Part shown: piece after piece, positions 3,001-21,541 of the stretch
How the letters are laid out: each line of letters opens with the position of its first letter
How positions within the stretch are numbered: the first letter of the stretch is position 1
Assembly: GCA_030834695.1 (NCBI GenBank)
Contig: JAUQXK010000045.1
Coordinates: 1-40,119 of the forward strand
Length of the DNA stretch: 40,119 bases
Direction: 5' to 3'
Origin: Desulfobacterales bacterium
GTDB lineage: Bacteria > Desulfobacterota > Desulfobacteria > Desulfobacterales > SpSt-501
Notes under the pieces: model-generated
Database searches by the model: none
The model's input: the letters and a program-made list of their open reading frames with translations, nothing else
What the model was told of the DNA's origin: nothing
Translations under genes and position numbers: made by a program

Positions 3001-3940
3001 GTTCGCGGTTCCTCCGAGGGCACCTACTCTCAACAATCCTACATTAAGCGGCAACACCAACAACCCGCGAGTCAACCTGACGTGGGTTGACAACTCCCAG
3101 AAGGAGGAAGGATTCACCGTCCAGAGGGCGACAGATGCCAATTTCACGGTAGGACTGACATCCTTCAACGTTGCAGCGAACGCCGTGACATTCCAGGATT
3201 CAACCGTCGCGAGGAATGGCCTTTACTGGTACAGGGTGTTCGCAAAAGGCAGTCCGGTCGGCGACTTGCAAACGGCGGGCTTCCCCACCATGTCGGCCGA
3301 CTCTGCATCCAATACGGTCCAAATTCAGGTCGGAGCTGTGCAGGGAACACCGACTGCGCCCACCAACCTGACGGCAACCCTGCAAACCGGCCCGCAGGCC
3401 AGCCTTACCTGGAGGGACAACGCCACCACCGAGACCGGCTTCCTGGTCGAGCGCTGCACGGGCGCCGGCTGCACGAACTTCGCCCAGATCGCCGTGGCGG
3501 GGCCGAGGAACAACACCGGCAACGTGACCTACGTGGACGCTACCGTAACCGCCGGCAACAGCTACTCCTACCAGGTAAGGGCTGTGAACGGCAGTGGCTC
3601 GTCGGCCCCCAGCAACACAGCCAGTGTGGTTGTGTCTGCGATACCGCCGGCGCCGACCGGTTTCACAGTGGCGGTCACCAAGGCCAACGGCAACAACTAC
3701 ACGGCGGCACTGAACTGGAGCGCGGCTACTGACCCGACCAGCTTCACCATCCAGCGCGCCACGAACCTTTCGTTCACGTCCGGCCTGAACACCTCCACGG
3801 TGGCGGGCAACCTCAGAGCACTAAATCAGACCGTGACGCGCAACACAACCTATTACTACAGGATCCGGGCGAACAACAATGTCGGCGGTTCGTCCAACTG
3901 GACGAACGCCCTGCCGTTCCCCATCCGCACCGGCCCCTGA
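2..3940 (+). CDS. Secreted multicopper oxidase with C-terminal fibronectin type III repeats, OmpB-like (5' partial)
   Basis: The frame is open through the left edge, so the start and any signal peptide lie outside; 1312 codons are visible. The first ATG at 80 is internal, because the frame before it reads as the same Gly/Thr-rich segment. All four copper motifs of multicopper oxidases are present (numbered from the first visible codon): HLHG at 227-230, HDH at 299-301, HTIHTH at 869-874, and HCHxxxHxxxxM at 984-995, where C985, H990 and M995 would be the type 1 ligands. Three Fn3-like repeats follow at about 1005-1100, 1115-1210 and 1213-1305. The size and architecture resemble Geobacter OmpB, a secreted multicopper protein linked to use of insoluble electron acceptors (from memory). 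A role in copper or other metal oxidation fits the neighbouring Cus genes. The substrate cannot be read from the sequence. Confidence 0.9.
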   Translation: MDADASAVIGQASIVSFTINNGGSGYMAPVVTITDSTGTGATADAIIGGTLAGGMRKFVDSMPGLGPSGANNLGQYIPVAVADTTAHLGSDYYEIALVEYSEKMHSDLPATKLRGYVQLETPGTLAAMAAMNPPLVSQHIDLGGGLFAVDIPHYLGPLIVAKGRAHGVTSPAGDPKPTRIKFYNLLPTGAGGDLFLPVDETIMGSGLGPAGPGVARDTYTQNRAAVHLHGNNSVWISDGNVHQWITPANENTPYPKGVSVRNVPDMLNPDGTVQCDSPGSGCMTFFYTNAQSARLQFYHDHAMGITRLNVYAGEAAGYVYTDAVEQDLINGTNVSGVYGIDATTGVPIPGSYTPVLPGLGIPLIIQDKTWVDADTIYAQDPTWNWGTLPAPGAGANGDLWYPHVYMTVQNPADLTGTNAFGRWHYGPWFNPPTPVCVNGQPVGCIEVGPVPNEYYQPICETNPNDPACTAPWEPPFRPGNPNPSIPGESFLDTSVVNGTAYPYLEVEPKAYRFRVLNAANDRMLNLQLYVAADKTAPTTAGTDYVATPARLCDGSVAVDNCTEVKMVPVSVAPANQYADTPSGIPDPATKGPAWIMIGTEGGFMPKPVVVPQQPIGYNLDPAYFSFGLVNQHSLFLGSAERVDVIVDFSGYAGKTLILYNDSPAPVPAGAAPYDFYTGDGNQMDAGGAPNTQPGYGPNTRTIMQIRVGTGTPVPYNLAALNQAFAKTGTKRGVFELTQEPIIIPQAAYNSAYNNTFPTTATQQYVQIADLQKTFQPINEAGQLQPAVTLPLEMKAMHDEMGGVYDTQFGRMSGMLGLSNPLSPVHVLIPYPLASPPTDIVKGSVEGQPIGVMPDGTQIWRIFHNGVDTHTIHTHLFHTQLINRVDQSGQVTGGTEAVDPTELGWKDTFRVNPLEVTYLAMRPTVPTPAQVPFEVPDSRRLIDPTLPLGATLIPPPPAGWFRPDGTAIPEILNHEVNFGWEYVWHCHILSHEEMDMMHSLVFAVPPRAPTLNNPTLSGNTNNPRVNLTWVDNSQKEEGFTVQRATDANFTVGLTSFNVAANAVTFQDSTVARNGLYWYRVFAKGSPVGDLQTAGFPTMSADSASNTVQIQVGAVQGTPTAPTNLTATLQTGPQASLTWRDNATTETGFLVERCTGAGCTNFAQIAVAGPRNNTGNVTYVDATVTAGNSYSYQVRAVNGSGSSAPSNTASVVVSAIPPAPTGFTVAVTKANGNNYTAALNWSAATDPTSFTIQRATNLSFTSGLNTSTVAGNLRALNQTVTRNTTYYYRIRANNNVGGSSNWTNALPFPIRTGP

Positions 3941-4070: not shown

Positions 4071-5429
4071 ATGAAGACTCTGTTAACCGCCGTCATTTTT
4101 CTCATCCTCCTTGCAGGATCGTTTCTGGCCGGCTCCTGGTACAGGGAGCACGAGACCAGAGTCCTTCCTTCGGAAATGAAACCACCCGCGGCGAGCGCCG
4201 ATTCGGGCCCTGCCGATACTGTAGCTGACACCGAATTGGACGATTCCTCTCTGCCTCCCGGAACCGTCAGGGTCACACCTGAGCGACAGCAGATGGTCGG
4301 CATCCGGTCTGGAGTTGTGGAAAAAACCGAAGGTGAATATTTCATCCGCGCCGTAGGGAGGGTCGCGCCCGATGAAAAGCGCGTCTACCGCTTGGTGGCA
4401 GCGGCTGACGGCTGGATCCGGGAGACCTACGCCAACGACACCGGAACCCTCGTGAAGAAGAATGAGCGATTGGCCTCTTTTTACAACCCCCTGCTTCGGA
4501 CCACCCAATACAACTACTTATCCGTCCTCGGTTCATCGCGGACTGACCGATATGACGCGGGCAGAAGGCAAGCGCTCGCGCCGTCTCAACTGGCGACTCT
4601 CGATATCAAGACCTACGTCGACGCGCTAGAAAGCCTCGGCATGAGCGAACAGCAGATGAAAGAACTATCCAGCACCAGGGAGGTCTCGGACAAGGTTTTC
4701 ATAGTGGCCCCGGCGACCGGCTTCATCATCGCGAGGAATGTGTCGCCCGGCCAGCAATTCGAGAAGGGTTTCGAGTGGTACCAGATCGCGAACCTCGACC
4801 GGGTCTGGATTTTGGCCGACCTCTTTCCGGCCGACGCGGGTCATGCAAAGCCCGGGACCACGGCCCGCGTCACCCTGCCCGGCCAGAACAAGGAGTTTCA
4901 TTCCACGGTGGCCAAAGTGCTCCCTCAGGTGGACCTGGCATCCAGGACAACGAAGGTGCGCCTCGAACTGGACAACCCCGGCCATGTGCTGCGCCCGGAT
5001 TTGTTCGTGAACGTGGAATTCCGGATCACGCGACCGCCGGCACTGGCCGTTCCAGCCGATGCGATCCTCGAGGCGGGGATGAGCCGGACCGTGTTCGTGG
5101 ACCGCGGGAACGGGTACTTCGAGCCTCGCGAGGTGGAAGCGGGCTGGCGGCACGGCGGCCGGGTCGAGATCACGAAAGGGCTCGAGCCCGGCGAGAAAAT
5201 CGCCCTCTCCGGCAACTTCCTGATCGACTCGGAGAGCCGCCTTCAGCTTGCCGCCTCCGGCATGCAGCCGCTGCTGGTCCAGGACCCGGTCTGCGGCCAG
5301 GAGATTTCCCCGCGCAAGGCGGAAAAAGCGGGCTTGAAAATTAGCCATGGGGGAAAAGCCTATTACTTCCACTCCGAAGAATGCAAAGCGCAATTCGACA
5401 AGAAGCCGGAGCAGTATGTGAAGGAATGA
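4071..5429 (+). CDS. cusB: CusB-type RND efflux periplasmic adaptor with C-terminal YHS domain
   Basis: This 452-residue protein is a membrane-fusion adaptor that would link a CusA-type pump to an outer membrane channel and may pass Cu(I)/Ag(I) to the pump. An N-terminal membrane anchor (about residues 4-22) is followed by the barrel-sandwich and beta-barrel regions typical of the family, including FIIARNVSPGQ and GFEWYQIANLD. The last 49 residues form a YHS metal-binding domain: DPVCG with C408, then YYFHSEEC with H434 and C438. An AGGGA lies very close to the ATG, so the ribosome site is modest. A TATAAC at 4045-4050 could be a -10 element, but no good -35 was found. cusA follows after a repeat-filled gap. 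The YHS fusion is seen in many environmental CusB proteins and suggests heavy-metal specificity. Confidence 0.9.
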   Translation: MKTLLTAVIFLILLAGSFLAGSWYREHETRVLPSEMKPPAASADSGPADTVADTELDDSSLPPGTVRVTPERQQMVGIRSGVVEKTEGEYFIRAVGRVAPDEKRVYRLVAAADGWIRETYANDTGTLVKKNERLASFYNPLLRTTQYNYLSVLGSSRTDRYDAGRRQALAPSQLATLDIKTYVDALESLGMSEQQMKELSSTREVSDKVFIVAPATGFIIARNVSPGQQFEKGFEWYQIANLDRVWILADLFPADAGHAKPGTTARVTLPGQNKEFHSTVAKVLPQVDLASRTTKVRLELDNPGHVLRPDLFVNVEFRITRPPALAVPADAILEAGMSRTVFVDRGNGYFEPREVEAGWRHGGRVEITKGLEPGEKIALSGNFLIDSESRLQLAASGMQPLLVQDPVCGQEISPRKAEKAGLKISHGGKAYYFHSEECKAQFDKKPEQYVKE

Positions 5430-5797: not shown

Positions 5798-8700
5798 ATG
5801 ATCAACCGCATCATCGACTTTTCGGTCGCGAACAAGTTCTTCGTTCTGGCGCTGACCGCCGTTGCCTGTATCGCCGGATGGTGGTCGGTGCGGCATATCC
5901 CGGTCGACGCGATCCCGGACCTGAGCGATACGCAGGTGATCGTGTTCTCGCGCTGGGACAAAAGCCCCGATCTCGTCGAGGACCAGGTCACCTACCCCAT
6001 CGTCTCGGCCCTGGTGGGCGCCCCCAAGGTCAAGGCCGTGCGCGGCTTCTCGGACTTCGGCTACTCCTACGTCTACGTTATCTTCGAAGACGGGACTGAC
6101 ATCTACTGGGCGCGCTCCCGCACCCAGGAATACCTTTCGGCCGTGCTGCCGCGCCTGCCGCAGGGGGCGCGGACCGAGCTCGGCCCGGATGCGACCCCCC
6201 TCGGATGGGTCTACCAGTACGCTCTCGTGGACGAGTCCGGCCAGCGCAGCTTGGCGGAACTGCGGTCCTACCAGGACTGGTATCTCAAGTACTATCTCAA
6301 GTCGGTGCCGGGGGTGGCGGAAGTGGCGCCGGTCGGCGGTTTCGGCAAGCAGTACCAGGTCAACGTCGACCCGAACCGGCTGCAGGCCTACGGGCTTTCG
6401 ATCAACAAGGTCGCCGATGCGGTGCGCGCGGGCAACTACGAAAGCTCGGGGCGGTTGATCGAATTCGGCGGTACTGAATACAACATCCGCGGACGCGGCT
6501 ACGTCAAGTCCGTGCAGGACCTCGAGGAGATTGCCGTGGCCACGAGCGCGAACGGGACCCCCGTCCGGCTCGCGGACATCGGCGAAGTAGTCCTCGGGCC
6601 GGACCTGCGCCGCGGCCTCGCGGACCTGGACGGCCGCGGCGACGTGGTCTCGGGCATCGTCGTCATGCGCCACGGGCAGAACGCGCTGGACGTGATCGAC
6701 CGGGTCAAGGCCAAACTGAAGGAGATCGAACCCGGGCTGCCGGCCGGGGTCAAGGTCGTCCCGGTCTACGACCGCTCGGACCTGATCCGGGGCGCGATCG
6801 ACAACCTCACTTCCACCGTGATCGAGGTGCTGGTCACCGTCTCGGCCGTGGTCTTCCTGTTCCTCTGGCACATCCCGAGCGCGGTCATCCCGGTCATCAC
6901 TCTGCCGATCGCGGTCCTGATCGCCTTCATCCCCTTCCGCATGACGGGGCTCACTGCCGACATCATGTCGCTGAGCGGGATCGCCATCGCCATCGGGGCG
7001 ATGGTGGACGCCTCCATCGTGGTGGTGGAGCAGACCCATAAGGGCCTGGAGCAGTGGAACCAGAGCGGGCGGAGGGAGGATTATCGTTCCGTGGTTATCA
7101 GGGCGGTGAAGCAGGTGGCCGGGCCCAGTTTTTTTGCCTTGCTGGTGATCGCCGTCGCCTTTCTGCCCGTGCTCACGCTCGAGGGCCAGGAGGGGCGCCT
7201 GTTCCGGCCGCTCGCCTACACCAAGAACCTGGCCATGATCATCGCTGCGGTGCTCGCGATCACGCTCGACCCGGCGCTACGCCTCCTGTTCATCCGCATG
7301 CGGGATTTCACGTTCCGCCCCGTGTGGCTCCGGCGAGCCGCCAACGCGGTTTTGGTCGGACGCATCCGGCCGGAGGAGTCACACCCGGTCAGCCGGGTGC
7401 TTATGGCGCTCTACCGGCCCGCGGCGGCCTGGTCGCTCAAGCGTCCCTATCTGGTGATCGCAGCGTCGTTCCTCCTCATGGCGGCCACTGTGCCAGTTTA
7501 CTTCAAGCTCGGCTCCGAGTTCATGCCGCCGCTGGAAGAAGGGTCGATCCTGTACATGCCGACGACCATGCCCGGGATCTCGATCACCGAGGCGCAGAAG
7601 CTGCTGCAGGTCACCGACCGGGTGATCCGCGGCTTCCCGGAGGTGGAACGCGTGCTCGGCAAGGCGGGCCGTGCCGAGACATCCACCGACCCGGCGCCGC
7701 TTTCCATGCTCGAGACGGTCGTGACGCTCAAACCCAAGAGCGAGTGGCGCGGGGTCGATACCTGGTATTCCGGCTGGGCACCGGAGTGGTTGAAAACGGC
7801 TTTACGGCATATTTCACCGGACCACATCTCCCAGCGCGAGCTGATCAGCGAGATGAACGACGCGCTGCGCCTGCCCGGGCTTTCCAATGCCTGGACCATG
7901 CCGATCAAAGGCCGAATCGACATGCTGAGCACCGGCCTGCGCACGCCGGTCGGGATCAAGATCACGGGCGCGGACCTCGACGCCATAGAGGAGATCGGCG
8001 GCCGGATCGAGTCGCTGCTTCCGAAAGTCCGCGGGACCCGCAGCGTGTTCGCAGAGCGGACCGCCAGCGGCTACTACTACGATGTGGATTGGAACCGCGC
8101 GGAACTCGCGCGCTACGGTTTCAGCATGGAGGAGGCGCAGGCTGCGGTCGAGCGCGCCATCGGCGGAGACAACGTGACCGTGACCGTCGAGGGGCGCGAG
8201 CGCTACCCCGTGAACGTGCGCTACATGCGCGACTTCCGCTCGGATGTTTACTCCCTCGAGCGCGTGCTGGTGGGAGGCGCGGGCGACCAGCCGCAGGTGC
8301 CGCTCTCGCTCTTGGCCACCATCAAACCCGTCAGCGGCCCTTCCATGATCCGCAACGAGGACGGCTTACTGACCGGGTATGTCTACATCGACCTCGCCGG
8401 TCGCGACACGGGCAGCTACATCGAGGAAGCGGCCGCGCTAATCCGGGAGAAAGTGCCACTACCGGCGGGGTACGCGGTCAGCTGGAGCGGGGAGTACGAG
8501 GCCTTGGTGCGCGTGCGCGAACGGCTGATGGCGGTCGTGCCGGTCACGCTCTTCCTCATCCTGCTCTTGCTCTACCTCAACACCCGATCGACGGTGAAGA
8601 CAGGGATCGTGCTGCTTGCGGTGCCGTTCTCGGCCATCGGCGCCTTCTGGATCCTCTACCTGCTCAACTACAACATGAGCATCGGGGTCTGGGTCGGGCT

Positions 8701-9058
8701 CATCGCCTTGCTGGGCGTGGATGCCGAGACCGGCGTATTTATGCTTCTCTATCTCGACCTCGCCTACGAGCAGGCCAGGAAAGAGGGGCGCCTTCGAAGC
8801 TTGGCGGACCTACAGGAAGCCATTCGTTATGGAGCGGTCATGCGCCTTCGGCCGAAATTCATGACGGTGGCCACTACCTTCATCGGGCTGGTTCCCATAT
8901 TGTGGTCCATCGGCATAGGTTCCGATGTGATGAAGCGAATTGCAGCTCCAATGGTCGGAGGTATCTTTACTTCTTTCTTATTGGAGCTTATGGTGTATCC
9001 GGCGATCTACCAGATCTGGAAATGGAACTTCGAACTGAAGAAGCAGGTTTCTTCGTGA
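5798..9058 (+). CDS. cusA: CusA/CzcA-family heavy-metal RND efflux transporter, Cu(I)/Ag(I) type
   Basis: This 1086-residue inner-membrane proton-driven pump would export metal ions through a tripartite complex with the CusB-type adaptor. TM4 carries GAMVDASIVVVE with D404 at the position of the proton-relay aspartate. The three methionines that line the Cu/Ag path in E. coli CusA (M573, M623, M672) have clear counterparts: M587 in LYMPTTMPG, M637 in APLSMLET and M709 in RIDMLSTG. This argues for copper or silver rather than zinc or cobalt. About 23 extra residues lie between the second and third methionine compared with E. coli. No good Shine-Dalgarno precedes the ATG, where repeat sequence ends. 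Most of a long frame on the same strand over 7054-9058 is a shadow of this gene. Confidence 0.95.
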   Translation: MINRIIDFSVANKFFVLALTAVACIAGWWSVRHIPVDAIPDLSDTQVIVFSRWDKSPDLVEDQVTYPIVSALVGAPKVKAVRGFSDFGYSYVYVIFEDGTDIYWARSRTQEYLSAVLPRLPQGARTELGPDATPLGWVYQYALVDESGQRSLAELRSYQDWYLKYYLKSVPGVAEVAPVGGFGKQYQVNVDPNRLQAYGLSINKVADAVRAGNYESSGRLIEFGGTEYNIRGRGYVKSVQDLEEIAVATSANGTPVRLADIGEVVLGPDLRRGLADLDGRGDVVSGIVVMRHGQNALDVIDRVKAKLKEIEPGLPAGVKVVPVYDRSDLIRGAIDNLTSTVIEVLVTVSAVVFLFLWHIPSAVIPVITLPIAVLIAFIPFRMTGLTADIMSLSGIAIAIGAMVDASIVVVEQTHKGLEQWNQSGRREDYRSVVIRAVKQVAGPSFFALLVIAVAFLPVLTLEGQEGRLFRPLAYTKNLAMIIAAVLAITLDPALRLLFIRMRDFTFRPVWLRRAANAVLVGRIRPEESHPVSRVLMALYRPAAAWSLKRPYLVIAASFLLMAATVPVYFKLGSEFMPPLEEGSILYMPTTMPGISITEAQKLLQVTDRVIRGFPEVERVLGKAGRAETSTDPAPLSMLETVVTLKPKSEWRGVDTWYSGWAPEWLKTALRHISPDHISQRELISEMNDALRLPGLSNAWTMPIKGRIDMLSTGLRTPVGIKITGADLDAIEEIGGRIESLLPKVRGTRSVFAERTASGYYYDVDWNRAELARYGFSMEEAQAAVERAIGGDNVTVTVEGRERYPVNVRYMRDFRSDVYSLERVLVGGAGDQPQVPLSLLATIKPVSGPSMIRNEDGLLTGYVYIDLAGRDTGSYIEEAAALIREKVPLPAGYAVSWSGEYEALVRVRERLMAVVPVTLFLILLLLYLNTRSTVKTGIVLLAVPFSAIGAFWILYLLNYNMSIGVWVGLIALLGVDAETGVFMLLYLDLAYEQARKEGRLRSLADLQEAIRYGAVMRLRPKFMTVATTFIGLVPILWSIGIGSDVMKRIAAPMVGGIFTSFLLELMVYPAIYQIWKWNFELKKQVSS

Positions 9059-9078: not shown

Positions 9079-9609
9079 ATGAAAGCCATTAAATGGATTT
9101 TTCTGGCCATCCTCATAGGACTTGTTGCGGCAGGGAGCCTGATCGCCTGGGCTTCTCCTCCGGAAGCAGCGGATGAAGAGAGCACGACATCACCCCAGAC
9201 CACCGGATCTTACTTAAAGGGAGAGGGTGCAGCGGCCGCATCCGTTGCACGGGGTCCAAATTCGCAGGCAATTTCTGGTATGCGGTTGATCGGGACCGCG
9301 GTCGTCGACGGCGCCACTTCCATCGCTTTCTTGCAGCTAATTTCTGGAACTCGGTTTGTGCGGGAGGGCGAAGAAATCGTCGACGGGATTCGCCTGGTCA
9401 GGGTTTGGAGAAACCGAATCGACGTCGAACGCGGGGGGAGGCACCAGGAGATCCGTTCGGACTCGAATGAAGGGATAGGGAACCACGCCCCTCCGTATCC
9501 AAACAGCGGAGAGATAGCCCCGGCCGATGTGGACCGCCTGCGGGAGACCCATGGGCGGATGGGACGATCCTTATTTTATTCACATTACCGAAAGCTTCAA
9601 AATCAGTAG
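9079..9609 (+). CDS. GspC-like membrane-anchored protein (type II secretion HR-domain homologue)
   Basis: The ATG at 9079, with GAGAGA just upstream and 20 bases after the cusA stop, gives 176 residues. An N-terminal membrane segment (about 6-24) is followed by a low-complexity linker. A region at 67-126 reads like the periplasmic homology region of GspC or PilP: LIGTAVVDG, then REGEEIVDGIRLVRV, then RNRIDVERGGR. GspC proteins connect the inner-membrane platform of type II secretion to the outer-membrane secretin. No other secretion gene is in the window, so this is an orphan in the cus transcript. The assignment rests on pattern similarity only. Its stop overlaps the convergent gene by seven bases. 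Confidence 0.65.
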   Translation: MKAIKWIFLAILIGLVAAGSLIAWASPPEAADEESTTSPQTTGSYLKGEGAAAASVARGPNSQAISGMRLIGTAVVDGATSIAFLQLISGTRFVREGEEIVDGIRLVRVWRNRIDVERGGRHQEIRSDSNEGIGNHAPPYPNSGEIAPADVDRLRETHGRMGRSLFYSHYRKLQNQ

Positions 9610-10604
9610 CCGATGAGGACGAAGTCCGAAAAAATCATTTTTAAGATCACGACGCCACTGAGGACCGCATAGAAGACAAGGCCTGCCCAGGCCAGGCGCT
9701 TCTGGATACGCGGGACGACGGCCTTCAGGCTCGGCACCGACCGGAAAGACATCAACGCCCAGGCTCCCGCGCCGGAAATGCCGCCTCCCAATAGGGTCAC
9801 GTAGATCAGGTATCCCACGTAATGGTATTCCCGCTGCAGGATGCAGAACGGGCAGTGGTGAGTCGGTAGCTCATAGAAGCACACCGAAATAAACGAAATT
9901 AGCGCTGCCACCGACACCGGAAACGCCAGGGTGCCGGCGACGCCAAAAATTTTTCCACCACTTCCTCCGCCCAGAAAAAAAATCCCCGAACCCATGACCA
10001 GCGCCATGCTGCCGAAGAAAAGCACCTGCATGGGAACCGCCGGCAGGGCAGCGAGCCCTGCCGCGAACCCTTCTTCTTCCGTGCTGAACAGGCTCCCGCA
10101 GCAGGAAGTGATGACGTGCGCCTTCAGATTCAGAAAATAGCTCCACAGCTGCCCGGTTTCGAATAAGAGAAAGGGCACGATTACCAGCAGGAGCGAGTAT
10201 TTCCTGCGGATCAGCGGGTAGTCACTCGCTTGGTTGTCGGTGTGGTTCAGTACCAGCCATACCCCACCCAGGAGGCAGTTCAGCACCTTGAGCACTACCG
10301 CCGGGTAGCCGTACTCGTTGACATTGAGGGTGCCCGCCGCGCACATGGCGCCCACGAAAAGCCGATGCAGGTCGTCGGCGACAAAGACCAACAGGAAAAA
10401 AGAGAGCACCTGGAAGCCGAATGCGTAGGTCATCAGCGTGGAGACGAGGTAGGTCTTCTTTTCGAGAGCGAGCTGTTGCTCGGAGCCGCTCTGCAGGTCC
10501 CAGGCGTCGATGATCTTGTAGGCCCAGAAGGCGGCGTAGGCAATCATCAGGCTCACTATGAGCGAGCCTGTGAGCAGGGCGATGACCGCGGGGTGCAGGA
10601 TCAT
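9603..10604 (-). CDS. Polytopic membrane protein with HHCPFC motif, copper-associated ABC operon
   Basis: The start is ATG at 10604, which overlaps the ATPase stop as ATGA; the frame extends further upstream but that part is a shadow of the ATPase gene. The 333-residue product has about eight hydrophobic segments. Cysteines stand out: C168-C169 in SCCGS and C251/C254 in HHCPFC. CPFC placed at a membrane boundary recalls disulfide exchangers such as VKOR or DsbB, and the two histidines could also bind Cu(I), but I do not recognise a named family. It is the last gene of the NosL/ABC operon, so a redox or metal-handling role alongside the transporter is likely. This function is inference. Confidence 0.8.
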   Translation of the reverse strand: MILHPAVIALLTGSLIVSLMIAYAAFWAYKIIDAWDLQSGSEQQLALEKKTYLVSTLMTYAFGFQVLSFFLLVFVADDLHRLFVGAMCAAGTLNVNEYGYPAVVLKVLNCLLGGVWLVLNHTDNQASDYPLIRRKYSLLLVIVPFLLFETGQLWSYFLNLKAHVITSCCGSLFSTEEEGFAAGLAALPAVPMQVLFFGSMALVMGSGIFFLGGGSGGKIFGVAGTLAFPVSVAALISFISVCFYELPTHHCPFCILQREYHYVGYLIYVTLLGGGISGAGAWALMSFRSVPSLKAVVPRIQKRLAWAGLVFYAVLSGVVILKMIFSDFVLIGY

Positions 10605-11287
10605 TCCGCCGGTCCCGAGCCGCGGATCCTGCCGTCGCGCATTTCGATTATATGGTCCACCATGGTAGATTCGTAGACCAGCGGGTCGTGGCTGGCGATG
10701 AGGATGGTCTTGGCCTCGGCGTTCAGCCGCTCCATGATTCCCAGGAAATCCTTGGAGAGCTTCGTATCCAGGTGGGCCGTGGGCTCGTCGGCGATGATCA
10801 CCTTGGGGTCGTTCACCAGGGCGCGCGCGATGGTCACGCGCTGGGCCTCTCCGCCCGAGAGCCACTCGACCCGCGCGCGCGCCTTGGCCGACAGGCCGAA
10901 GAGTTCGAGCAGGCGCAGCGCCCGCTCGCGCAGGGCGGCATGCTTCTCACCGGTGGTGTAGGCCGGCAGCATGACGTTTTCGAGGGCGCTGATGCCGCGG
11001 ATCAGGTGGAACTGCTGGAAGATGAACCCGAAGGTCCGGCGCCGGACCTCGGTGAGGAAGCGCTCCGGCAAGCTCGTGATCTCGCGGGCGCCCACCAATA
11101 CCCGTCCGGAGGTGGGCTTGGCCATGGCGCCGACGATGCTGAGCAGGGTGGTCTTGCCCGACCCGCTCGGCCCCTTGAAGACCGTGACCTTGCGCTCCTC
11201 GACCAGCAGGCTCACATCCTCCAGGGCGGTGAACTCGTCGGGACGGTTGCGGTTGAAGACCTTCGTTATGTTCTTGAGCTCGACCAT
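10601..11287 (-). CDS. ABC transporter ATP-binding protein, LolD/MacB type
   Basis: This 228-residue ATPase carries Walker A GPSGSGKT (39-46), the Q-loop near Q91, the signature LSGGEAQR (143-150), Walker B VIIADE (163-168) and the H-loop H200. Its length and spacing match LolD, MacB and FtsE proteins, which pair with FtsX-like permeases that work mechanically on periplasmic cargo rather than moving it through a channel. The partner is the permease gene immediately upstream in the operon. The Shine-Dalgarno (GAGGTGA) is about 16 bases from the ATG and therefore weak. An inverted-repeat element fills the gap to the permease gene. The downstream membrane gene is coupled through an ATGA overlap. 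Confidence 0.93.
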   Translation of the reverse strand: MVELKNITKVFNRNRPDEFTALEDVSLLVEERKVTVFKGPSGSGKTTLLSIVGAMAKPTSGRVLVGAREITSLPERFLTEVRRRTFGFIFQQFHLIRGISALENVMLPAYTTGEKHAALRERALRLLELFGLSAKARARVEWLSGGEAQRVTIARALVNDPKVIIADEPTAHLDTKLSKDFLGIMERLNAEAKTILIASHDPLVYESTMVDHIIEMRDGRIRGSGPAE

Positions 11288-11313
11288 ACGCTATTGATAA
11301 AATCACCTCAAGC

Positions 11314-11438
11314 GATGACTTCGCAAAAAGGCCAGGATCAAGACGCGCGAATCTCGCCACGCGAGGCGTACTCGAACTTCGCCGCAGCGATAGCGCGATG
11401 AAGCGCAACGCCGGGATTGGCCGTTCTGCGAAGTCATC
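11314..11438. mobile_element. MITE-like 125-bp inverted-repeat element inside the ABC operon
   Basis: Terminal inverted repeats of 21 bases, 11314-11334 (GATGACTTCGCAAAAAGG...) and 11418-11438 (...TTCTGCGAAGTCATC), match at all but two positions. The interior is GC-rich and has no coding frame. The element lies exactly between the permease stop and the ATPase start, and its right terminus supplies two bases of the permease stop codon. A 42-base relative of its right end lies at 14115-14156. From memory, similar TTTTTGCGAAGTC repeats are frequent between genes in Desulfobacterota. Confidence 0.75.
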
Positions 11439-12570
11439 ACAGCCTCATGATGGAATCCGGGTCCACCGTGGCGGCGCTCCACGTGGGGATCACCGTGGCC
11501 ACGGTGTACGGGACCACCGTCAGGAAGAACAGCGCCAGAACCTGGTACGGGTCGATCTGCGGCACGAGCTGAAAGCGCGGGTACAGCACGGCCCAGCCCT
11601 TTAGGACCGGCTCGAAGATAAACGCCGACGAGAAGAAAACATGAACGTAGGCGAGCACGGTCCCGCCGAAAAAGGCCGCCAGCGAAATGATGATGCCCTC
11701 CCAGGACTTCATGGCGATGACCTCGGAGGTTTCCCAGCCGACCGCCTTCAGCACCCCCATCTCACGGCGCTCCTCCATGCTGAGGCTTGTGGCCTTGTCC
11801 CAGGCGAAGATGACGAAGGCGGCCACGGCACCCGCAAAAATCACCAGCAGCAGGCCGCTTCGCCAGTCGAAAAGCGAATCATAGGTCCGCAGGATCTCGT
11901 CGCGCAGGATCGGCCGGGTGTCCGGCAGGAGCCTCCGGATCTTGTCGGCCACCACCACCAACTCCTTCTCGTTGCGAACCTTCAAGGTAATGTCGGTGAA
12001 ATAGTCCTCAGGAACCCCGAAGAATGCGCGCAGATCATCGGCGTGCATCTCGATCAGGTCGGACGAGACCAGCTCCGATTCATGCGAAAACACCCGCACC
12101 ACTTCGAAGCTCGCATAATCCCCTTTGGAGCCCTTGAGAGGAATCAGATCTCCTTCGCCGGCGTTCAGCGTTCGCGCCACTCCCTGGCCGATGGCGATGG
12201 TGCCGGGCTCCAGCGGCGGCTCTCCCGAGGCCACAACGGTGTAGTTGGCGCCGGTGGAAGGTTCAAAGTAGTAGCCCCAGAGCCGGCCCTGCACCTGACG
12301 GGTCCCTGTGATTTTCCTGAGCACGTCGATGTGGCTCTCCGGAATCAGGTCATGGCGGCCGGCCATGAGCCGCTGGACGACGATCTCCGGTGCGCCACGG
12401 AGCACGGCGCGCGCCTCGCTCTTGACGGCCTCCGTGAAAAACACCACCGAGGCCAGCGTGAACACGACAAAAGCATACACCACCGTCAGGGCGAGGTTCT
12501 TCTTCCAGCGCCGACCGAGCGAGGACAGCGCAAAGTCGATGATATTGCGATGGCGTTCGTGCAGGCTCAT
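11437..12570 (-). CDS. ABC transporter permease, FtsX/MacB type
   Basis: The start is ATG at 12570, overlapping the previous stop as ATGA; an upstream extension of the frame lies in the preceding gene and is rejected. The 377-residue protein has the MacB/LolC layout: an N-terminal membrane segment (about 29-47), a large periplasmic domain (about 50-240), then three C-terminal membrane segments. The conserved cytoplasmic coupling stretch MEERREMGVLKAVGW precedes the second membrane helix. It should dimerise and work with the LolD-type ATPase encoded next. Because two NosL proteins precede it, the cargo may be a copper-loaded protein or copper itself; that is inference. The stop codon overlaps the terminus of the repeat element. 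Confidence 0.9.
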   Translation of the reverse strand: MSLHERHRNIIDFALSSLGRRWKKNLALTVVYAFVVFTLASVVFFTEAVKSEARAVLRGAPEIVVQRLMAGRHDLIPESHIDVLRKITGTRQVQGRLWGYYFEPSTGANYTVVASGEPPLEPGTIAIGQGVARTLNAGEGDLIPLKGSKGDYASFEVVRVFSHESELVSSDLIEMHADDLRAFFGVPEDYFTDITLKVRNEKELVVVADKIRRLLPDTRPILRDEILRTYDSLFDWRSGLLLVIFAGAVAAFVIFAWDKATSLSMEERREMGVLKAVGWETSEVIAMKSWEGIIISLAAFFGGTVLAYVHVFFSSAFIFEPVLKGWAVLYPRFQLVPQIDPYQVLALFFLTVVPYTVATVIPTWSAATVDPDSIMRL

Positions 12571-12869
12571 TGCGGTCGCAGGTGAGGGGGCGGCGAAATG
12601 AGCGTCCCAGATGGAAAGTGCTCCATGGCCATGGGGCTGTCCTGGAAGGGCGTGTGCCGGTCGGCCATGGAAGGATGCCGCGCGTAACGCGCATCGGTGA
12701 AGAGGCAAAGGTCGGTCAGGTCGAGCCGTTTGACGAGAGCCGCGGATTCATTCCATGCGGCTTGGGCCTTTTGGTGGCGGTAGTGGGCGTGAGCGACCAT
12801 CACGGCAAGCGCACCCGCTCCCAGCCCCGCGAGGACAAAAAAAATGGTCGACTTCCTGGTCGGCATCAA
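12567..12869 (-). CDS. Small membrane-anchored protein of the NosL/ABC operon
   Basis: This 100-residue protein has one N-terminal hydrophobic segment (about 8-27) and a short exported part. That part contains LCLFTDARYARHPSMADRH followed by FQDSPMAMEHFPSGTL, then PPPH near the end, a pattern I recall from uncharacterised proteins beside nosL and MacB-type permeases. It is bounded on both sides by ATGA overlaps with the NosL gene and the permease, which strongly supports translation. The exported part is rich in His and Met (several of each within about 40 residues), so metal contact is possible. No function is established. Confidence 0.8.
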   Translation of the reverse strand: MMPTRKSTIFFVLAGLGAGALAVMVAHAHYRHQKAQAAWNESAALVKRLDLTDLCLFTDARYARHPSMADRHTPFQDSPMAMEHFPSGTLISPPPHLRPQ

Positions 12870-13339
12870 TCGAGCGTCTTAACGAGGGGCAGATCGATTT
12901 GTTCAAAAGTCAGGGCGGCTTTCCCCTGATGGTCTTTCATGAATTCCTTGGCACCGGCCTCGGTTTCAAAGGGGATCAGTTCTTTTCCCATGGGTCCGTA
13001 GACGTCGCTGCCCGCCACGTAAAAGGCGTTGCGGCCGTCGATAAGCACCAATCGATAATAATCGGTGACGTGCACGGCCTGGATGTCCGCGGTCGTCTTG
13101 CCCGGAGCATATTTGGCCATATTGAAGTAATACTTCATCATGTCCTTGACGCCGTCGAAGAAAATGGTCGAACCGTTCCTCAAGACAACGGCGGCGACCC
13201 AATCCGGGTATTTGGCGACGAACATGCCGCACACCGGGCACTTGTCCTTCGGACCTGGCTTCACCGCAACCGAGTCACCGGCCCATAGGAAGGGCACGTG
13301 AAGCAATAAGGATAAAAATAGAACCGCTTTCAGGATCAT
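12866..13339 (-). CDS. nosL: NosL-family copper-binding protein (second of two)
   Basis: This 157-residue exported protein has a signal peptide ending near residue 20 (HVPFLWAG). The NosL signature is C34-P-V-C37-G-M39, followed by VAKYPDW and a motif resembling GSTIFFDGVKDMMKYY. NosL is a Cu(I) chaperone, known from delivery of copper to nitrous oxide reductase; no nosZ, nosD, nosF or nosY is in this window, so here it probably serves the adjacent ABC system. A GGGAGG lies about 14 bases upstream of the ATG. The stop overlaps the next start as ATGA. The protein lacks an obvious lipobox, unlike NosL lipoproteins. Confidence 0.88.
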   Translation of the reverse strand: MILKAVLFLSLLLHVPFLWAGDSVAVKPGPKDKCPVCGMFVAKYPDWVAAVVLRNGSTIFFDGVKDMMKYYFNMAKYAPGKTTADIQAVHVTDYYRLVLIDGRNAFYVAGSDVYGPMGKELIPFETEAGAKEFMKDHQGKAALTFEQIDLPLVKTLD

Positions 13340-13399
13340 AACGGGGCAAAATCCTCCCTCTGCGACCGCTGCGTCTCTGCGATAAGCACTCTTTCGGCC

Positions 13400-13906
13400 T
13401 CAGGAGCCCTGCTTCATACGCTTGGCTTTCCGGCGTTCGCGGATCATCTTCGTATCCGCATTCATGTCTTCGTAGGCCGCTTTGATGACGCTATCGAAGT
13501 CGGCCAGCGCACCGCCGTTTGCCTTGACGAATGCCTCGGCATCCTCCTTTTTGTCGAAGGCCCACTTGGCCCGTTTGGTCATCACCCCCGGCTTTTCCCC
13601 GCCGAGAACCCATATCGCCTTCTCGGCGTCGATCAGGTTCTTGGTGTTGAAATCGGCCACCTGGATGGTCTTGGGGGTCTTGTCTATGTTCAGGGCCAAA
13701 TCGACGGCCACACAGTGCAGGCTACAGGACCCCAGCTCCGAGCCATCGTCATAGACCAAAAGCATGCGGCTATGCGCGAACATCTTACGATCCATCCCGC
13801 AATATTTGCAGGAACCGTGGCTGTCGATGTCCTGTTGAGCGATCGCGTAACCGCCGGTGAGCAGAAGCGCCGCCATCAGGGCTATAGACCATACCCCCTT
13901 GTTCAT
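13400..13906 (-). CDS. NosL-family copper-binding protein (first of two)
   Basis: First gene of the leftward operon. The ATG has an excellent ribosome site (AAGGAGG). The 168-residue product has a signal peptide of about 23 residues (ends GGYAIAQ). The metal-binding core is C33-K-Y-C36-G-M38, with a second pair C61-S-L-H-C65 and a nearby HSRM. This differs from the downstream paralogue, which lacks the CSLHC pair, so the two proteins may hold copper in different ways or pass it from one to the other. The C-terminus is basic and helical-looking (KMIRERRKAKRMK). A promoter and possible operator must lie between 13907 and 14246, shared with the divergent gene. Confidence 0.88.
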   Translation of the reverse strand: MNKGVWSIALMAALLLTGGYAIAQQDIDSHGSCKYCGMDRKMFAHSRMLLVYDDGSELGSCSLHCVAVDLALNIDKTPKTIQVADFNTKNLIDAEKAIWVLGGEKPGVMTKRAKWAFDKKEDAEAFVKANGGALADFDSVIKAAYEDMNADTKMIRERRKAKRMKQGS

Positions 13907-14114: not shown

Positions 14115-14156
14115 GATGAGGCGCAACGCCGAGAGTGGCCTTTTTGCGAAGTCGTC
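14115..14156 (+). repeat. Partial copy of the 11314-11438 element (right end)
   Basis: Forty-two bases match the right end of the MITE-like element (11397-11438) at 36 of 42 positions in the same orientation, including GCGCAACGCCG and TTGCGAAGTC. No left terminus is found nearby, so this is a fragment or solo end. It lies in the divergent region before the FixH-like gene. Confidence 0.7.
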
Positions 14157-14246
14157 AAGCTTGAATTTCTGGAAGAATGCAGGTAGCACTTGTCTATAAT
14201 TTGCAGGCGAACTTGTTCGTGTTCGCTGAAACGGACACCACCATCG

Positions 14247-14651
14247 ATGAACCCAAGAGTCTTGACCTACCCGGGGATTGCGCTGCTGGCTTTTTTCACG
14301 CTCGTGGAACCTTGCGTGGCGGCTGACTACCGGGTGCGCAAAACTGCCGAAGGCCTGACCTTCGACATCGCCATCAACCGCAATCCGCCGATATTGGGCG
14401 ACAACGAGATCCGCATCGAGATCAAGGACCCCCAGGGCAAGCTGGTGCTGGACGCGGAGGTGTGGGTCAACTACTACATGCCGCCCATGCCCAAAATGGC
14501 GCCCATGAACTACACTGCCCCGGCGACGCTCAAAGGCAAAGAATACCGGGCCACCATGGATCTGATCATGACCGGCCCATGGAACATCATCACCCGGGCC
14601 AGAATTCAGGGTAAATGGATCAGAGTCGTCTTTCCCATCGATGTCCGCTGA
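14247..14651 (+). CDS. FixH/YtkA-like exported protein with Met-rich motif
   Basis: The chosen ATG gives 134 residues with a clear signal peptide (cleavage near VAADY, residue 26). The mature part is a beta-rich domain like the FixH/YtkA family: EIRIEIKDPQGKLV, then VNYYMPPMPKMAPMNY, then GPWNIITRARIQG. Methionines 78, 81, 84 and 87 fall within ten residues and could bind Cu(I), as in other copper-region proteins; that is inference. A TTG in the same frame at 14190 is not needed. No good Shine-Dalgarno precedes the ATG, but TATAAT stands at 14195-14200. The gene is divergent from the NosL operon and convergent with the efflux operon. Confidence 0.78.
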   Translation: MNPRVLTYPGIALLAFFTLVEPCVAADYRVRKTAEGLTFDIAINRNPPILGDNEIRIEIKDPQGKLVLDAEVWVNYYMPPMPKMAPMNYTAPATLKGKEYRATMDLIMTGPWNIITRARIQGKWIRVVFPIDVR

Positions 14652-14999: not shown

Positions 15000-16406
15000 T
15001 CAGATGGCGCCGCCGCCCAACGTTGCATACAGCCGGACCTGGTTGACGAGCTTCACCAGGCGGATGGCGATGAGGCCCTGCTGCGCGGAATAAAGCGAGC
15101 GCTGTGCGTCCAGCACGTTGAGATAGATGTCGCTGCCCTTCTCGTAGCGGGCATTGGAAAGCCGGTAGGTTGCTGCGGTCGCATCCACGAGCGACTGCTG
15201 CGCCGCCATCTGCTCGGCCATGGTCCCCCGGCGGGCCAGCGCATCGGCCACCTCCCGGAACGCCGTCTGGATCGCGCCCTCATATTGATTCAGGGCGATC
15301 TGCTGCTGCACCTCGCTCACGTCGAGCGCCGCCCAGATCCGCGGGTCGAAGATCGGCATGACGACCACCGGCGTGAAGTTCCAGGCGAGCGAGCCGGACT
15401 TGAACAGCCCCGACAGTTGCTCGCTGGCGGTGCCGACGGCGGTCGTGAGCGAAATCCGGGGGAAGAACGCCGCCCGGGCCGCGCCGATATCGGCGTTGGC
15501 GGCTTTGAGCAGGCTTTCGGCCTGAAGCACGTCCGGCCGGCGCAGCAGGATCTCCGAAGTGGTTCCGGCCGAGACGTCCGGCAGCGCGGCGACGGCGCTC
15601 AACCCCTCGGGCAGCCAATCGGCCGGAACCGGCGCGCCCACCAGCAGGGTCAGGGCGTTTTCATCCTTGGCCGCCAGCTCGGTGTAGCGGGCGACGTCCA
15701 CCCGCGCCGTGTCCACCCGCGTTTGCACCTGGCGCAGGTCCAGTTCGGGCACGATGCCGACTTCGAAGCGCCGCCGGATCAAGTTGTAGGAGGCCTGCTG
15801 GGCCGCGAGGGTGGACTGCGCCAGCTGGAGGTTCTCGCGGTTTGCGGCCAGCGTCAGGTAGGCGTAGGCGACTTCGGACACCAGCAGGATCCGGGCGCTG
15901 CGGCGGGCCTGCTCCGTGCCGAGGTATTCCTCCAGGGCGCGCTGCTCCAGGCTGCGGACGCGGCCGAAGAAGTCGATCTCCCAGGAGGCGATGCCGAGCT
16001 CGGCGCGGTACTGCTCGAAGGTCTCCGACCGCCCCGTACCGGACAGGTCATGGGGCACCCGCTGTTTGTTGCCGCTGCCGACCGCATCGACGGCCGGCAA
16101 CAACTCGGCGCGCTGGATGCGGTAAAGCGCGCGCGCCCGCTCGACGTTCAGCGCGGCCGCCCGCAGGTCGCGGTTGTTCTCCAGCGCCGCCGCGATCACC
16201 GCCTGCAGGCGTTCGTCGGTGAAAAACTCCTGCCACGGCACGTCGTCGGCCGCTGCAGCGGCCGGATCCGAAGGGCCGTTTTTATACGACGGGCCGCTCG
16301 GCCAGCCGTCGGGAATCGGCGCCTCCGGGCGCTGATACGGCGGGATCATGGTGCAGCCGGCGATCAGAACGATCAGGGTCAGCAGGGTCGGCGTCGTGCG
16401 GGTCAT
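15000..16406 (-). CDS. oprM: Outer membrane efflux lipoprotein, NodT/OprM family
   Basis: The 468-residue protein starts at ATG 16406, two bases from the pump stop; longer in-frame starts run into the pump gene and are rejected. Its lipoprotein signal ends LIVLIAGC, followed by PPYQRPEAPIP as in OprM, CmeC and NodT. The body shows the two tandem outer membrane efflux repeats (for example QAESLLKAANADIGAARAAF and YEKGSDIYLNVLDAQ), which build the trimeric barrel-tunnel channel. It completes the AcrAB-type pump encoded just upstream. It is the only outer membrane channel in the window, so the Cus-type pump may use it or one encoded elsewhere. Confidence 0.95.
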   Translation of the reverse strand: MTRTTPTLLTLIVLIAGCTMIPPYQRPEAPIPDGWPSGPSYKNGPSDPAAAAADDVPWQEFFTDERLQAVIAAALENNRDLRAAALNVERARALYRIQRAELLPAVDAVGSGNKQRVPHDLSGTGRSETFEQYRAELGIASWEIDFFGRVRSLEQRALEEYLGTEQARRSARILLVSEVAYAYLTLAANRENLQLAQSTLAAQQASYNLIRRRFEVGIVPELDLRQVQTRVDTARVDVARYTELAAKDENALTLLVGAPVPADWLPEGLSAVAALPDVSAGTTSEILLRRPDVLQAESLLKAANADIGAARAAFFPRISLTTAVGTASEQLSGLFKSGSLAWNFTPVVVMPIFDPRIWAALDVSEVQQQIALNQYEGAIQTAFREVADALARRGTMAEQMAAQQSLVDATAATYRLSNARYEKGSDIYLNVLDAQRSLYSAQQGLIAIRLVKLVNQVRLYATLGGGAI

Positions 16407-16407
16407 G

Positions 16408-19400
16408 TCAGTGTGCCTCCGAAGGGCGCACCGCGTCGGCACCCGGTTTTTGCATTTCGGCACCCTTCATTTTTCCAAACAGCTGAACCACCGCCACGTA
16501 AAACAGAGGGATGAACGGCGTCGCCAGGAAAGTGGCGGCCAGCATCCCGCCCAGGACCCCGGTGCCGATGGCGGTTTGCGCACCCGCCCCGGCTCCGTTG
16601 GCGATGGCGAGCGGAAGGACCCCGAAGCCGAACGCCAGCGAGGTCATGACGATCGGACGGACCCGCAATTTGGCGCCTTCCAGGGTTGCTTCGATCAGCC
16701 CCGTCCCTTCCTTAACCCTGGCCATGGCGAATTGCACGATCAGAATGGCGTTCTTGGTGGTCAGCCCTAAAACGGTGAGGAGCCCGATCTGGAAATACAC
16801 ATCGTTTGGAAATTCTCGCAGCGATGAAGCCACCACGCCCCCGATGACCCCCAGCGGCAACGTCAGGATGATCGAAAAGGGAACGGTCCAACTCTCGTAT
16901 AAAGCGGCCAGGCAGAGAAAAATCACGATGATGGAAAAGGCGTAGAGCAGCGGCGCCTGGGACTTCGCCATCCGCTCCTGGTAGGAGAGTCCGGTCCAGT
17001 CGAATCCGAGTCCACGGGGCAGCTGCGCAGATATTTCCTCCATGGCCTGCATCGCCTCCCCCGAGCTCCTCCCCGGCGGCGGGCCGCCCCAGATATTTAA
17101 GGACGGAAAGCTGTTGAATCGCTCCAGCCGGGGCGATCCCTGGAACCAGTGCCCGGATGCAATGGCGGAGAAAGGGGTCATCGTCCCGGAATCGTTTCGA
17201 ACGTAGAGCCGATCCAGGTCTTGTGGAAGCATCCGGTACGGGGCGTCGGCTTGGATGTAGACCCGCTTGACGCGCCCGCCCTGGATGAAGTCGTTCACGT
17301 AGGCGCCGCCGAACGCGGCCGAGATGGTGGTGTGGATGGAGTCGATCGGAACCCCGAGGGCACCGGCTTTCTGCCAATCCACATCGATTCGGTATTGCGA
17401 TACGTCTTCCAGGCCGTTTGGGCGCACACGGGTCAGCCTCGGGTCCTGGGCCGCCGTGCTCAGCAATTGGTTGCGGGCCGCCATCAATGCTTCATGCCCC
17501 ACCCCGCCCCGGTCCTGAAGCTGGAAGTCGAAACCGCCCGATTGCCCGAGCTCCATGACGGCCGGAGGCGGGAAAGCGAACACCCGGGCGTTGCGGATGG
17601 TCGCGAACTTCACCATGGCGCGTTTCAGCAGGCTGTCGACCTTCAGATCCGCCCGGGTGCGCAGGTTCCAGTCTTTGAGCTTGACGAACGAAAGCCCCAC
17701 GTTCTGCCCGGTTCCGGAAAAGCTCCTGCCGGCCAGCGTAAAGCAGGTGGCCACCGCATCCTTTTCATCCTCCAGGAAATGAGTGCGGACCAGCTCCATG
17801 ACCTGCTCGGTCTGCTCCAGGGCCGAACCCGCCGGCAGCGTCACTTGGACGAACAGGATCCCCTGATCCTCATTGGGCAGATAGGCGGTGGGCATCCGCT
17901 GGAAGAGAACGGCCAATACGGCCACCAGCAGAACGTAGAGGAACAGGTAGCGAAGCTTTCTCGATATCAGATGGCTCGCCATGGCCACATACTGCCTCCG
18001 GGCGCGGCGAAACGTCCGGTCAAACCACCGGAAGAAAGGGCGGAACAGGACGAAACCCGTTTCTGCGGCCTCGTGCCCCCTGGGGACCGGCTTGAGGAGC
18101 GAGGCGCACAAGACCGGGGTCAGAATCAGCGCCACGACGACCGAGAGCAGCATGGCGGCAATGACGGTCACCGAAAACTGCCGGTAAATGACGCCGGTGG
18201 AGCCGGTGAAGAAAGCCATAGGGCCGAACACCGCCGAAAGGACCAGCCCGATTCCGATCAATGCGCTGGTGATTTCCTTCATGGACTTGCGGGTGGCCTC
18301 CTTGGGAGGGAGCCCCTCCTCGGCCATGACCCGCTCCACGTTTTCCACCACGACGATGGCATCGTCCACGAGAAGGCCGATGGCCAGAACCATGGCAAAC
18401 ATGGTCAGCATGTTGATGGAAAAGCCGAACAAACCCAACACCGCAAAAGTGCCCAGGATGACCACCGGCACCGCCAGGGTGGGGATGAGGGTCGCCCGTA
18501 TGTTTCCCAGGAAAAGATACATTACGAGGAACACCAGCAGGACCGCCTCGAACAGGGTCTTGATGACCTCCTTGATGGCCTCCTTCACGAACGGCGTGGT
18601 GTCGTTGGGGTAGATGGCCTTCATGCCGGCAGGGAAATACCTGGAGAGATCCGCCATTTTCGCCTTGATGGCGTCCGCGGTCGCCAGAGCATTGGCGCCG
18701 GGGGCCTGCCGGACGGCAAGAGCGGCCGAGGGCCTGCCGTTGGTGAGCATTCGGCTCCCGTAGCGTTCGGTGCCCAGCTCGGTGCGGCCCACGTCGCGGA
18801 TGCGCACAATGGATCCATCCGGATTGGTTCGCAGCGGAATGGCGCCGAACTCCTCCGGAGTCTTGAGGAGGTTTTGGACGATGATCGAGGCGTTCATCCG
18901 CTGGCCTTCCACCGCCGGCGCGCCGCCGAATTGCCCGGCTGAAATTTCCACGTTATAGGCCCGCAGCCGCTGGATGACATCTTCCACCGTCAGACGGTAA
19001 TCGTTCATTTTTTCCGGATTCAACCAGACCCGCATGGAATATTGGGAGGAGAAGACCTCCACCTCCCCCACCCCCGGCACCCGCGCCAGCACTTGTTGGA
19101 CGCTCGACTGGGCGTAGTCCGCCAGATCGTAGTCGTCCATGCTGCCGTCTTCCGAGGTCAGCCCCACGATGATCAGCCAGTTGCGGGTGGACTTGCTGAC
19201 CTTGACCCCCTGGCGCTGGACCACATCGGGCAGACTCGCCATGGCGAGCTGGAGCTTATTCTGAACCTGAGCCCAGGCAAGGTCCGGATCGGTCCCGGGC
19301 GCAAAGGTCAGCTCGATCCGTCCGGCTCCCGAGGCGTCGCTGTTGGCGGACATGTACAACAATTTGTCGAACCCGGTCATCTTCTGCTCGATGATCTGAA

Positions 19401-19587: not shown

Positions 19588-19599
19588 GGCAGTCCTCCC

Positions 19600-20811: not shown

Positions 20812-20873
20812 CGAGATATTCTCCTCGTAGGGATGTCCGTGACGGATGGAGGTTCGTGGTATTGAGGTCAATC

Positions 20874-21497: not shown

Positions 21498-21541
21498 CGG
21501 ATGCCCCTTGGATGTGTCGATAAATTGCATAAAATGAATAT

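Follow-up and report, generated by a model that had tools for sequence, protein, structure and literature searches.

We have analysed a minus-strand operon of six genes in a 40,119-nucleotide stretch of DNA from a Desulfobacterales bacterium (contig JAUQXK010000045.1; called here the window). The operon encodes two NosL-type proteins (NosL-A and NosL-B), a small anchored protein, an FtsX-type permease, an ATPase of the ATP-binding cassette (ABC) class and a membrane protein with eight predicted helices, named P6. Judging from the sequences, we give even chances to the reading that these proteins together handle Cu(I) in the periplasm at the expense of ATP, as a kind of relay; copper is likely the metal because of the motifs of the NosL proteins and the nature of the neighbouring genes. 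The genes of the operon occur together in other genomes far beyond chance. No description of the operon was found in the open-licence papers of PubMed Central (subscription papers and most preprints lay outside the search), thus, as far as these papers show, a previous interpretation of the same DNA, made without database searches and called here the sequence-only reading, was right to regard the system as undescribed.

Conservation and components of the operon

Of the 58 kin-set genomes, 13 (the own genome counted) had a homologue of P6, as had 63 of the 395 that were sampled from the phylum as a whole, and a scan of species genomes confirmed at least 532 P6 loci. The first sample consisted of the best 80 of these at least 532 loci by similarity, a few of their contigs coming from kin-set genomes. 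By title they belong to Deltaproteobacteria/Desulfobacterota, Geobacter relatives, Nitrospirota and Methylococcaceae, with one Lentisphaerae and one Marinimicrobia genome in addition. With contig ends included, 76 of the best 80 had the permease and as many the ATPase, 74 had the small protein and 63 had NosL; ATPase matches below 300 bits were left out and the thresholds were set by ourselves. Among the 49 well-flanked loci of this sample (at least 5 kb upstream and at least 4 kb downstream) the permease, the ATPase and the small protein were present in all 49 and NosL in 45, and 23 repeat the order of the window (NosL, NosL, small protein, permease, ATPase, P6). The second sample, 60 loci from the phylum-wide draw, shares at least seven loci with the best 80. 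P6 was recognised in 58 of them at a threshold of 40 bits, and the two omitted loci (L184 and L198, with P6 at 37.5 and 37.3 bits) gave no clear result on inspection. These 58 loci contained the ATPase 55 times, the permease 54 times, the small protein 41 times and NosL 40 times, with CusA (11), TlpA-like (11) and SCO (9) proteins among the neighbours. The sequence-only reading had proposed to look for such co-occurrence, the lack of a conserved neighbourhood being the outcome that would speak against it; the neighbourhood proved to be conserved.

Both NosL proteins belong to PF05573 (NosL-A 51.9 bits, NosL-B 110.5 bits, Pfam cut-off 24) and are the only matches to this family in their own genome; neither matched any NCBIfam model. 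Both look secreted. NosL-A carries CKYCGMDR, CSLHC and GVM, and NosL-B carries CPVCGM and GSDVYGPMG; in alignments of 14 sequences, residues C33, C36, M38, C61, H64, C65 and M109 of NosL-A and residues C34, C37, M39 and M117 of NosL-B were invariant. Compared with solved NosL structures, NosL-A matched 7og7 (E 1.7e-8) and NosL-B matched 7osf (E 9.4e-15), and the CxxCGM motif and the second Met of both align with the solved proteins. These residues are proposed Cu(I) ligands or strictly conserved in NosL according to the relevant passages of PMC6530538, and the earlier claim of two different NosLs with Cu(I) motif residues was confirmed. NosL was seen fused to a Phenol_MetA_deg-type domain resembling an outer-membrane barrel in genomes of Methylococcaceae, in one of Nitrospira and in an unclassified one; eight such fusions were aligned (including L077:12027-13436 and L088:12716-14128), two of which were checked with Pfam.

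The usual association of NosL is with nitrous oxide reductase (excerpts of PMC6769254). The own genome had no match to the NosZ model TIGR04246 at E <= 0.001, the other NosZ model not being searched, and none of the 13 P6-positive genomes passed its cut-off (two had weak partial matches), nor did any control genome. With this single model, then, the absence of nosZ noted previously stands, and it is of interest that two NosLs are kept although TIGR04246 detected no NosZ in the genome, NosL being as a rule linked to N2O.

The permease reached 29.6 bits with the FtsX family PF02687 (cut-off 25.5) and the ATPase 101.1 bits with ABC_tran, PF00005 (cut-off 25). By sequence, the solved permeases came in the order LolF (E 1.3e-8), YtrF, LolE (1.4e-4) and LolC. 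The predicted structure of the permease (predicted local distance difference test, pLDDT, 84.3; predicted template modelling score, pTM, 0.72) matched LolE (Foldseek E 1.2e-15), MacB (1.5e-13), HrtB (3.6e-11) and also FtsX; by VIA it matched 5xu1_M with a Z of 23.0 (root-mean-square deviation 4.9, 347 residues aligned). On the basis of this model the predicted fold is that of the type VII ABC transporters (MacB/LolCDE/FtsX), and the earlier assignment to a mechanotransmission ABC transporter, rather than to NosFY, is in line with both Pfam and the fold.

The model of P6 (pLDDT 88.4, pTM 0.88) contains eight helices in two four-helix bundles, as drawn from the helix list and the VIA structure comparison, and the motifs GAMC, SCC and H.CPFC are near-invariant across 71 homologues. 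The polytopic protein with Cys pairs that had been described proved to be conserved. The loops bearing GAMC and HHCPFC are poor in Lys and Arg and the alternate loops are rich in them; on the strength of these counts the Cys motifs were placed outside, and GAMC, SCC and HHCPFC are predicted to lie on the periplasmic side. P6 matched no curated family (Pfam, NCBIfam) and no sequence in the PDB, its fold had no Foldseek match at E <= 0.001, and the VIA list comprised mostly generic helical bundles. A search of the plasmid collection with P6 and the permease gave no match. By sequence, candidate identities of P6 found no support: Pfam searches with 12 P6 members, allowing E up to 5, matched 12 families without VKOR/DsbB, and the CopD type was matched by one of the 12 members at E 3, which is meaningless. 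The model has two four-helix halves, but an internal duplication had no sequence signal (hhalign probability 0.2%). P6 may act outside the operon as well, since homologues without adjoining ABC genes occur at four loci.

For the small protein a single anchor is predicted by reading of its sequence. An alignment of 17 homologues gave the motif LTDLCLFTDARYxRHPSxADxHxPFQDxPxxxEHFPSG, and there were zero matches to the protein in Pfam, NCBIfam or, by sequence, the PDB.

Operon layout and gene neighbours

The positions of the genes are collected in the table below. All six lie on the minus strand, as the sequence-only reading had stated, and they have no internal stop codons. Of the three ATGA overlaps that it listed, two are present (small protein/permease and ATPase/P6); the junction of NosL-B and the small protein is TGATG, a one-nucleotide overlap. 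A start of P6 is possible at the ATG at 10604, which would give 333 amino acids and overlaps the ATPase stop. Promoter-like and terminator-like sites in the window were at about the level of shuffled sequence.

Table. Features of the operon and of its surroundings in the window
Feature	Positions	Strand	Family or basis
NosL-A	13400..13906	-	PF05573
NosL-B	12866..13339	-	PF05573
Small anchored protein	12567..12866	-	without Pfam or NCBIfam match
FtsX-type permease, 377 amino acids, predicted type VII ABC fold	11437..12570	-	PF02687
ABC ATPase, LolD/FtsE/MacB type	10601..11287	-	PF00005
P6, predicted eight-helix membrane protein with GAMC, SCC, HHCPFC	9603..10604	-	model, motifs
Inverted-repeat element	11314..11438		21-nucleotide arms, 90% complementary
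CusA/CzcA-type resistance-nodulation-division (RND) pump adjoining the operon	5798..9058	+	TIGR00914, 1009 bits, over cut-off, heavy-metal efflux (HME) type
CusB-like adaptor with C-terminal YHS domain	4071..5429	+	HlyD_D23, 176.1 bits; YHS, 43 bits
YtkA-like protein, divergent from the operon	14190..14651	+	PF13115, 50.8 bits (cut-off 25.9)

The permease and ATPase genes of the window are separated by 149 bp. This stretch (11288-11436) resembles an inverted-repeat element and was matched 43 times in the own genome, itself counted, the other copies being 72-82% identical; 40 of 79 candidate places were scored. A 12-nucleotide end matching the inverted-repeat element stands at 14142-14153, upstream of NosL-A. 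Since the permease and ATPase genes abut in the congener locus L016, the gap looks like an insertion, and the inverted-repeat element appears to have been inserted within the operon.

The sequence-only reading had placed the operon between a Cus-type pump and a FixH-like protein. The pump was recovered as an HME-type RND pump; the other neighbour matches YtkA instead, its score of 18.7 bits with FixH being under the cut-off of 23. A YtkA homologue is found upstream of the operon on the same strand in L037, L091 and L104, and in L037 and L091 CusB, CusA, YtkA and the operon follow each other serially on one strand. Elsewhere in the window we observed at 80-3940 a multicopper-oxidase-like protein of 1286 amino acids with a fibronectin type III domain and, beyond YtkA at 15000-21530, a cluster of outer-membrane factor, RND pump, adaptor and TetR-type regulator, recognised by reading the translations.

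The survey of neighbours covered the window and 78 loci, 79 neighbourhoods in all; the CusA- and CusB-like clusters were recognised from the proteins of the window itself, and of every other neighbour family one member was scanned with Pfam. A CusA-like RND pump occurs in 23 of the 79 and a CusB-like protein in 19. In 13 related genomes, 57.85 Mb of DNA, 12 HME-RND pumps passed the cut-off; at this density about 0.3 would be expected in 80 loci. TlpA-like proteins were found in 15 neighbourhoods, SCO in nine, DsbD_2 proteins in seven (the single one scanned had a cupredoxin match below the cut-off), and DsbD_N and heavy-metal P-type ATPases in five each. Genes for CusA, CusB-like, SCO and TlpA-like proteins are recurrent neighbours at P6 loci, in line with the copper genes noted around the operon in the sequence-only reading. 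In genome G018 (L020, 2745-12595) the operon is rearranged, and between its genes, on the same strand, lie those of a COX2-domain cytochrome c, a 4Fe-4S protein with a borderline COX2 match, a plastocyanin-type protein and a DUF2318 protein; the G018 genome had no COX1 match. This cluster from a single genome is the best hint at the client proteins. In L093 a DUF2318 protein stands directly upstream of the operon.

Proposed function and its alternatives

We infer complex formation, copper as the substrate, the role of ATP and the direction of transfer in the following scheme. NosL-B and NosL-A would be exported and would bind Cu(I) at the CxxCGM motif and at the second Met. Dimers of the permease and of the ATPase may form a type VII ABC machine through which copper itself would not be passed; ATP hydrolysis would rather move the periplasmic domains of the permease, and this movement would be transmitted to an assembly in the membrane that includes P6 and the small anchored protein. 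With its predicted outer Cys clusters P6 would be a natural partner, as Cu(I) acceptor or as thiol relay: its Met-Cys, Cys-Cys and HHCPFC residues could take over Cu(I) or maintain the thiols of the donors in reduced form. Copper would then pass to periplasmic acceptors, either cuproproteins or the CusBA pump.

Several observations weigh against a Cu(I) relay of this kind. P6 has no ABC genes nearby in L023, L162, L182 and L192. NosL is missing in four of the 49 well-flanked loci and, within the searched span, in 18 of the 58 loci of the phylum-wide draw, some of which lie at contig ends. The lipobox of classical NosL was seen in neither NosL of the window. A sigma-54-type response-regulator family forms the commonest cluster of neighbours (25 of 79 neighbourhoods); it is not copper-specific, and the same is true for the di-haem peroxidases (13 of 79). 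Finally, among 71 permeases no Cys, Met or His of the periplasmic domain is conserved at the level of 85%. Taken with the type VII fold, this lack of conserved metal ligands may point to mechanical work on periplasmic partners more than to a copper channel; the evidence suggests that ATP-driven work of this sort fits better than copper passing through the permease. The sequence-only reading had proposed copper export from the periplasm, or loading within it, driven by the ABC proteins; of the two, export driven by these proteins was not supported.

The first alternative, which we regard as possible yet on the unlikely side, is a redox-supply module designed, by analogy, like FetABCDEF, where the ABC proteins and P6 would bring reducing power to the periplasm; with the same reservation, the Cys pairs of P6, NosL and, if present, TlpA would be a dithiol relay keeping the Cu(I) donors reduced. 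A flow of reducing power is proposed for the FetABCDEF design in passages of PMC10783030, and the TlpA-like and DsbD_N neighbours, as well as the DUF2318 proteins in the L020 cluster and before the L093 operon, would fit such a supply. Kinship with Fet proteins was looked for and not found: P6 had an hhalign probability of 0.1% with one FetA (from an E. coli plasmid) and no Pfam match, and the permease scored 34.9 bits with FetC and 16.7 bits with FetB, against 40.3 bits for an unrelated FtsX permease of the own genome. Moreover, no TlpA gene was noticed beside the operon in the window.

Copper export is in our judgement improbable. Here Cu(I) would be collected by the NosLs and expelled from the periplasm by a MacB-like ABC machine, which would work on its own or supply CusBA. 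The CusA- and CusB-like neighbours, the serial arrangement in L037 and L091, the MacB-type fold of the permease and the fusions of NosL to an outer-membrane-barrel-like domain in some lineages are all consistent with this, but no MacA-like adaptor was recognised among the operon genes, Cus pumps already export, and 56 of the 79 neighbourhoods have no CusA-like gene in their available DNA. The TlpA-like, SCO, DsbD_N and DUF2318 genes and, in a single genome, the CuA/cupredoxin genes suggest redox supply or cuproprotein loading no less than export.

A Lol-type release of specific lipoproteins, for example of the TlpA-like neighbour, is very improbable. Leaving YtrF aside, the closest solved permeases are LolF, LolE and LolC, and LolD (TIGR02211) is the best NCBIfam model of the ATPase. 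However, the ATPase reached 187.6 bits with a cut-off of 307.75, and the permease 43.7 bits with the LolCE model, whose cut-off of 362.45 is passed by a different permease of the own genome (408.8 bits, a positive control); in addition, the small protein and the NosLs of the window show no lipobox. An assembly apparatus for a nitrous oxide reductase encoded elsewhere in the genome, to which membership in the NosL family could point, is scarcely credible with no TIGR04246 match in the genome and an operon without nosDFY.

If the operon handles copper, as in the relay that we favour, it would add an ATP-driven step to periplasmic copper traffic, would introduce P6 and the small protein, two families without a curated model, and would concern methane oxidisers, Nitrospira and relatives of Geobacter. 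We tentatively consider, at somewhat less than even chances, that bacteria possess, in addition to RND pumps and P-type ATPases, a further and widespread kind of copper machine, in which a mechanotransmission ABC transporter would use ATP to drive the hand-over of Cu(I) between NosL chaperones and P6, a new class of membrane Cys protein, all in the periplasm; that it is common to Desulfobacterota-type lineages, Geobacter relatives, Nitrospirota and methane oxidisers is a suggestion equally tentative.

Comparison with known systems

The operon shares with MacAB-TolC and HrtBA the predicted type VII permease fold. It differs from them by its partners, NosL, P6 and the small protein, and, unlike MacB, its permease and ATPase are separate chains. 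The likeness to LolCDE extends to the nearest solved sequences, whereas the permease and the ATPase of the window remain below the cut-offs of LolCE and LolD.

With NosDFYL the operon has in common a putative Cu(I) protein of the NosL type and a dedicated ABC transporter in one operon. NosY is a permease of the ABC-2 type. Here an FtsX/LolC-type permease stands in the place of NosY, NosD is absent, the NosLs have no lipobox, P6 and the small protein are added, and the genome is one without a TIGR04246 match. A role of NosL outside N2O reduction is already suspected: excerpts of PMC13068155 report NosL and NosDFY without NosZ in Parageobacillus, in that case together with the classical type of transporter.

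Among the systems that have been studied, FetMP-FetABCDEF comes nearest in design. FetABCDEF, which supports iron uptake, joins thioredoxins and an ATPase to FtsX permeases and to FetA, a protein of eight helices with YHS and with the Cys pairs of DUF2318; a flow of reducing power through the Fet proteins is what its authors propose (passages of PMC10783030). The operon resembles it in the eight-helix Cys-bearing membrane protein, the FtsX permease and the LolD-like ATPase, and some relatives of the operon also have thioredoxins and DUF2318; it differs in having NosL for FetM/FetP and one permease gene versus two. Separate modules of DUF2318 protein, FtsX permease and ATPase were observed in L126 (in the own genome), L127 and L128; the permeases of these modules are similar to FetB/FetC, at about 120 and 102 bits, and a TlpA-like gene is present in L127 and L128. 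Neither an FTR1 nor a P19 gene was noted next to these modules, no search being aimed at them.

Because no kinship with FetA, FetB or FetC was found, the operon is a member of neither Fet nor NosDFYL, and by analogy it may work like either of them. If the operon handles copper, it and Fet, which serves iron, may be examples of a broader class of metal or redox helpers in which a type VII ABC module works with a membrane partner that bears Cys residues.

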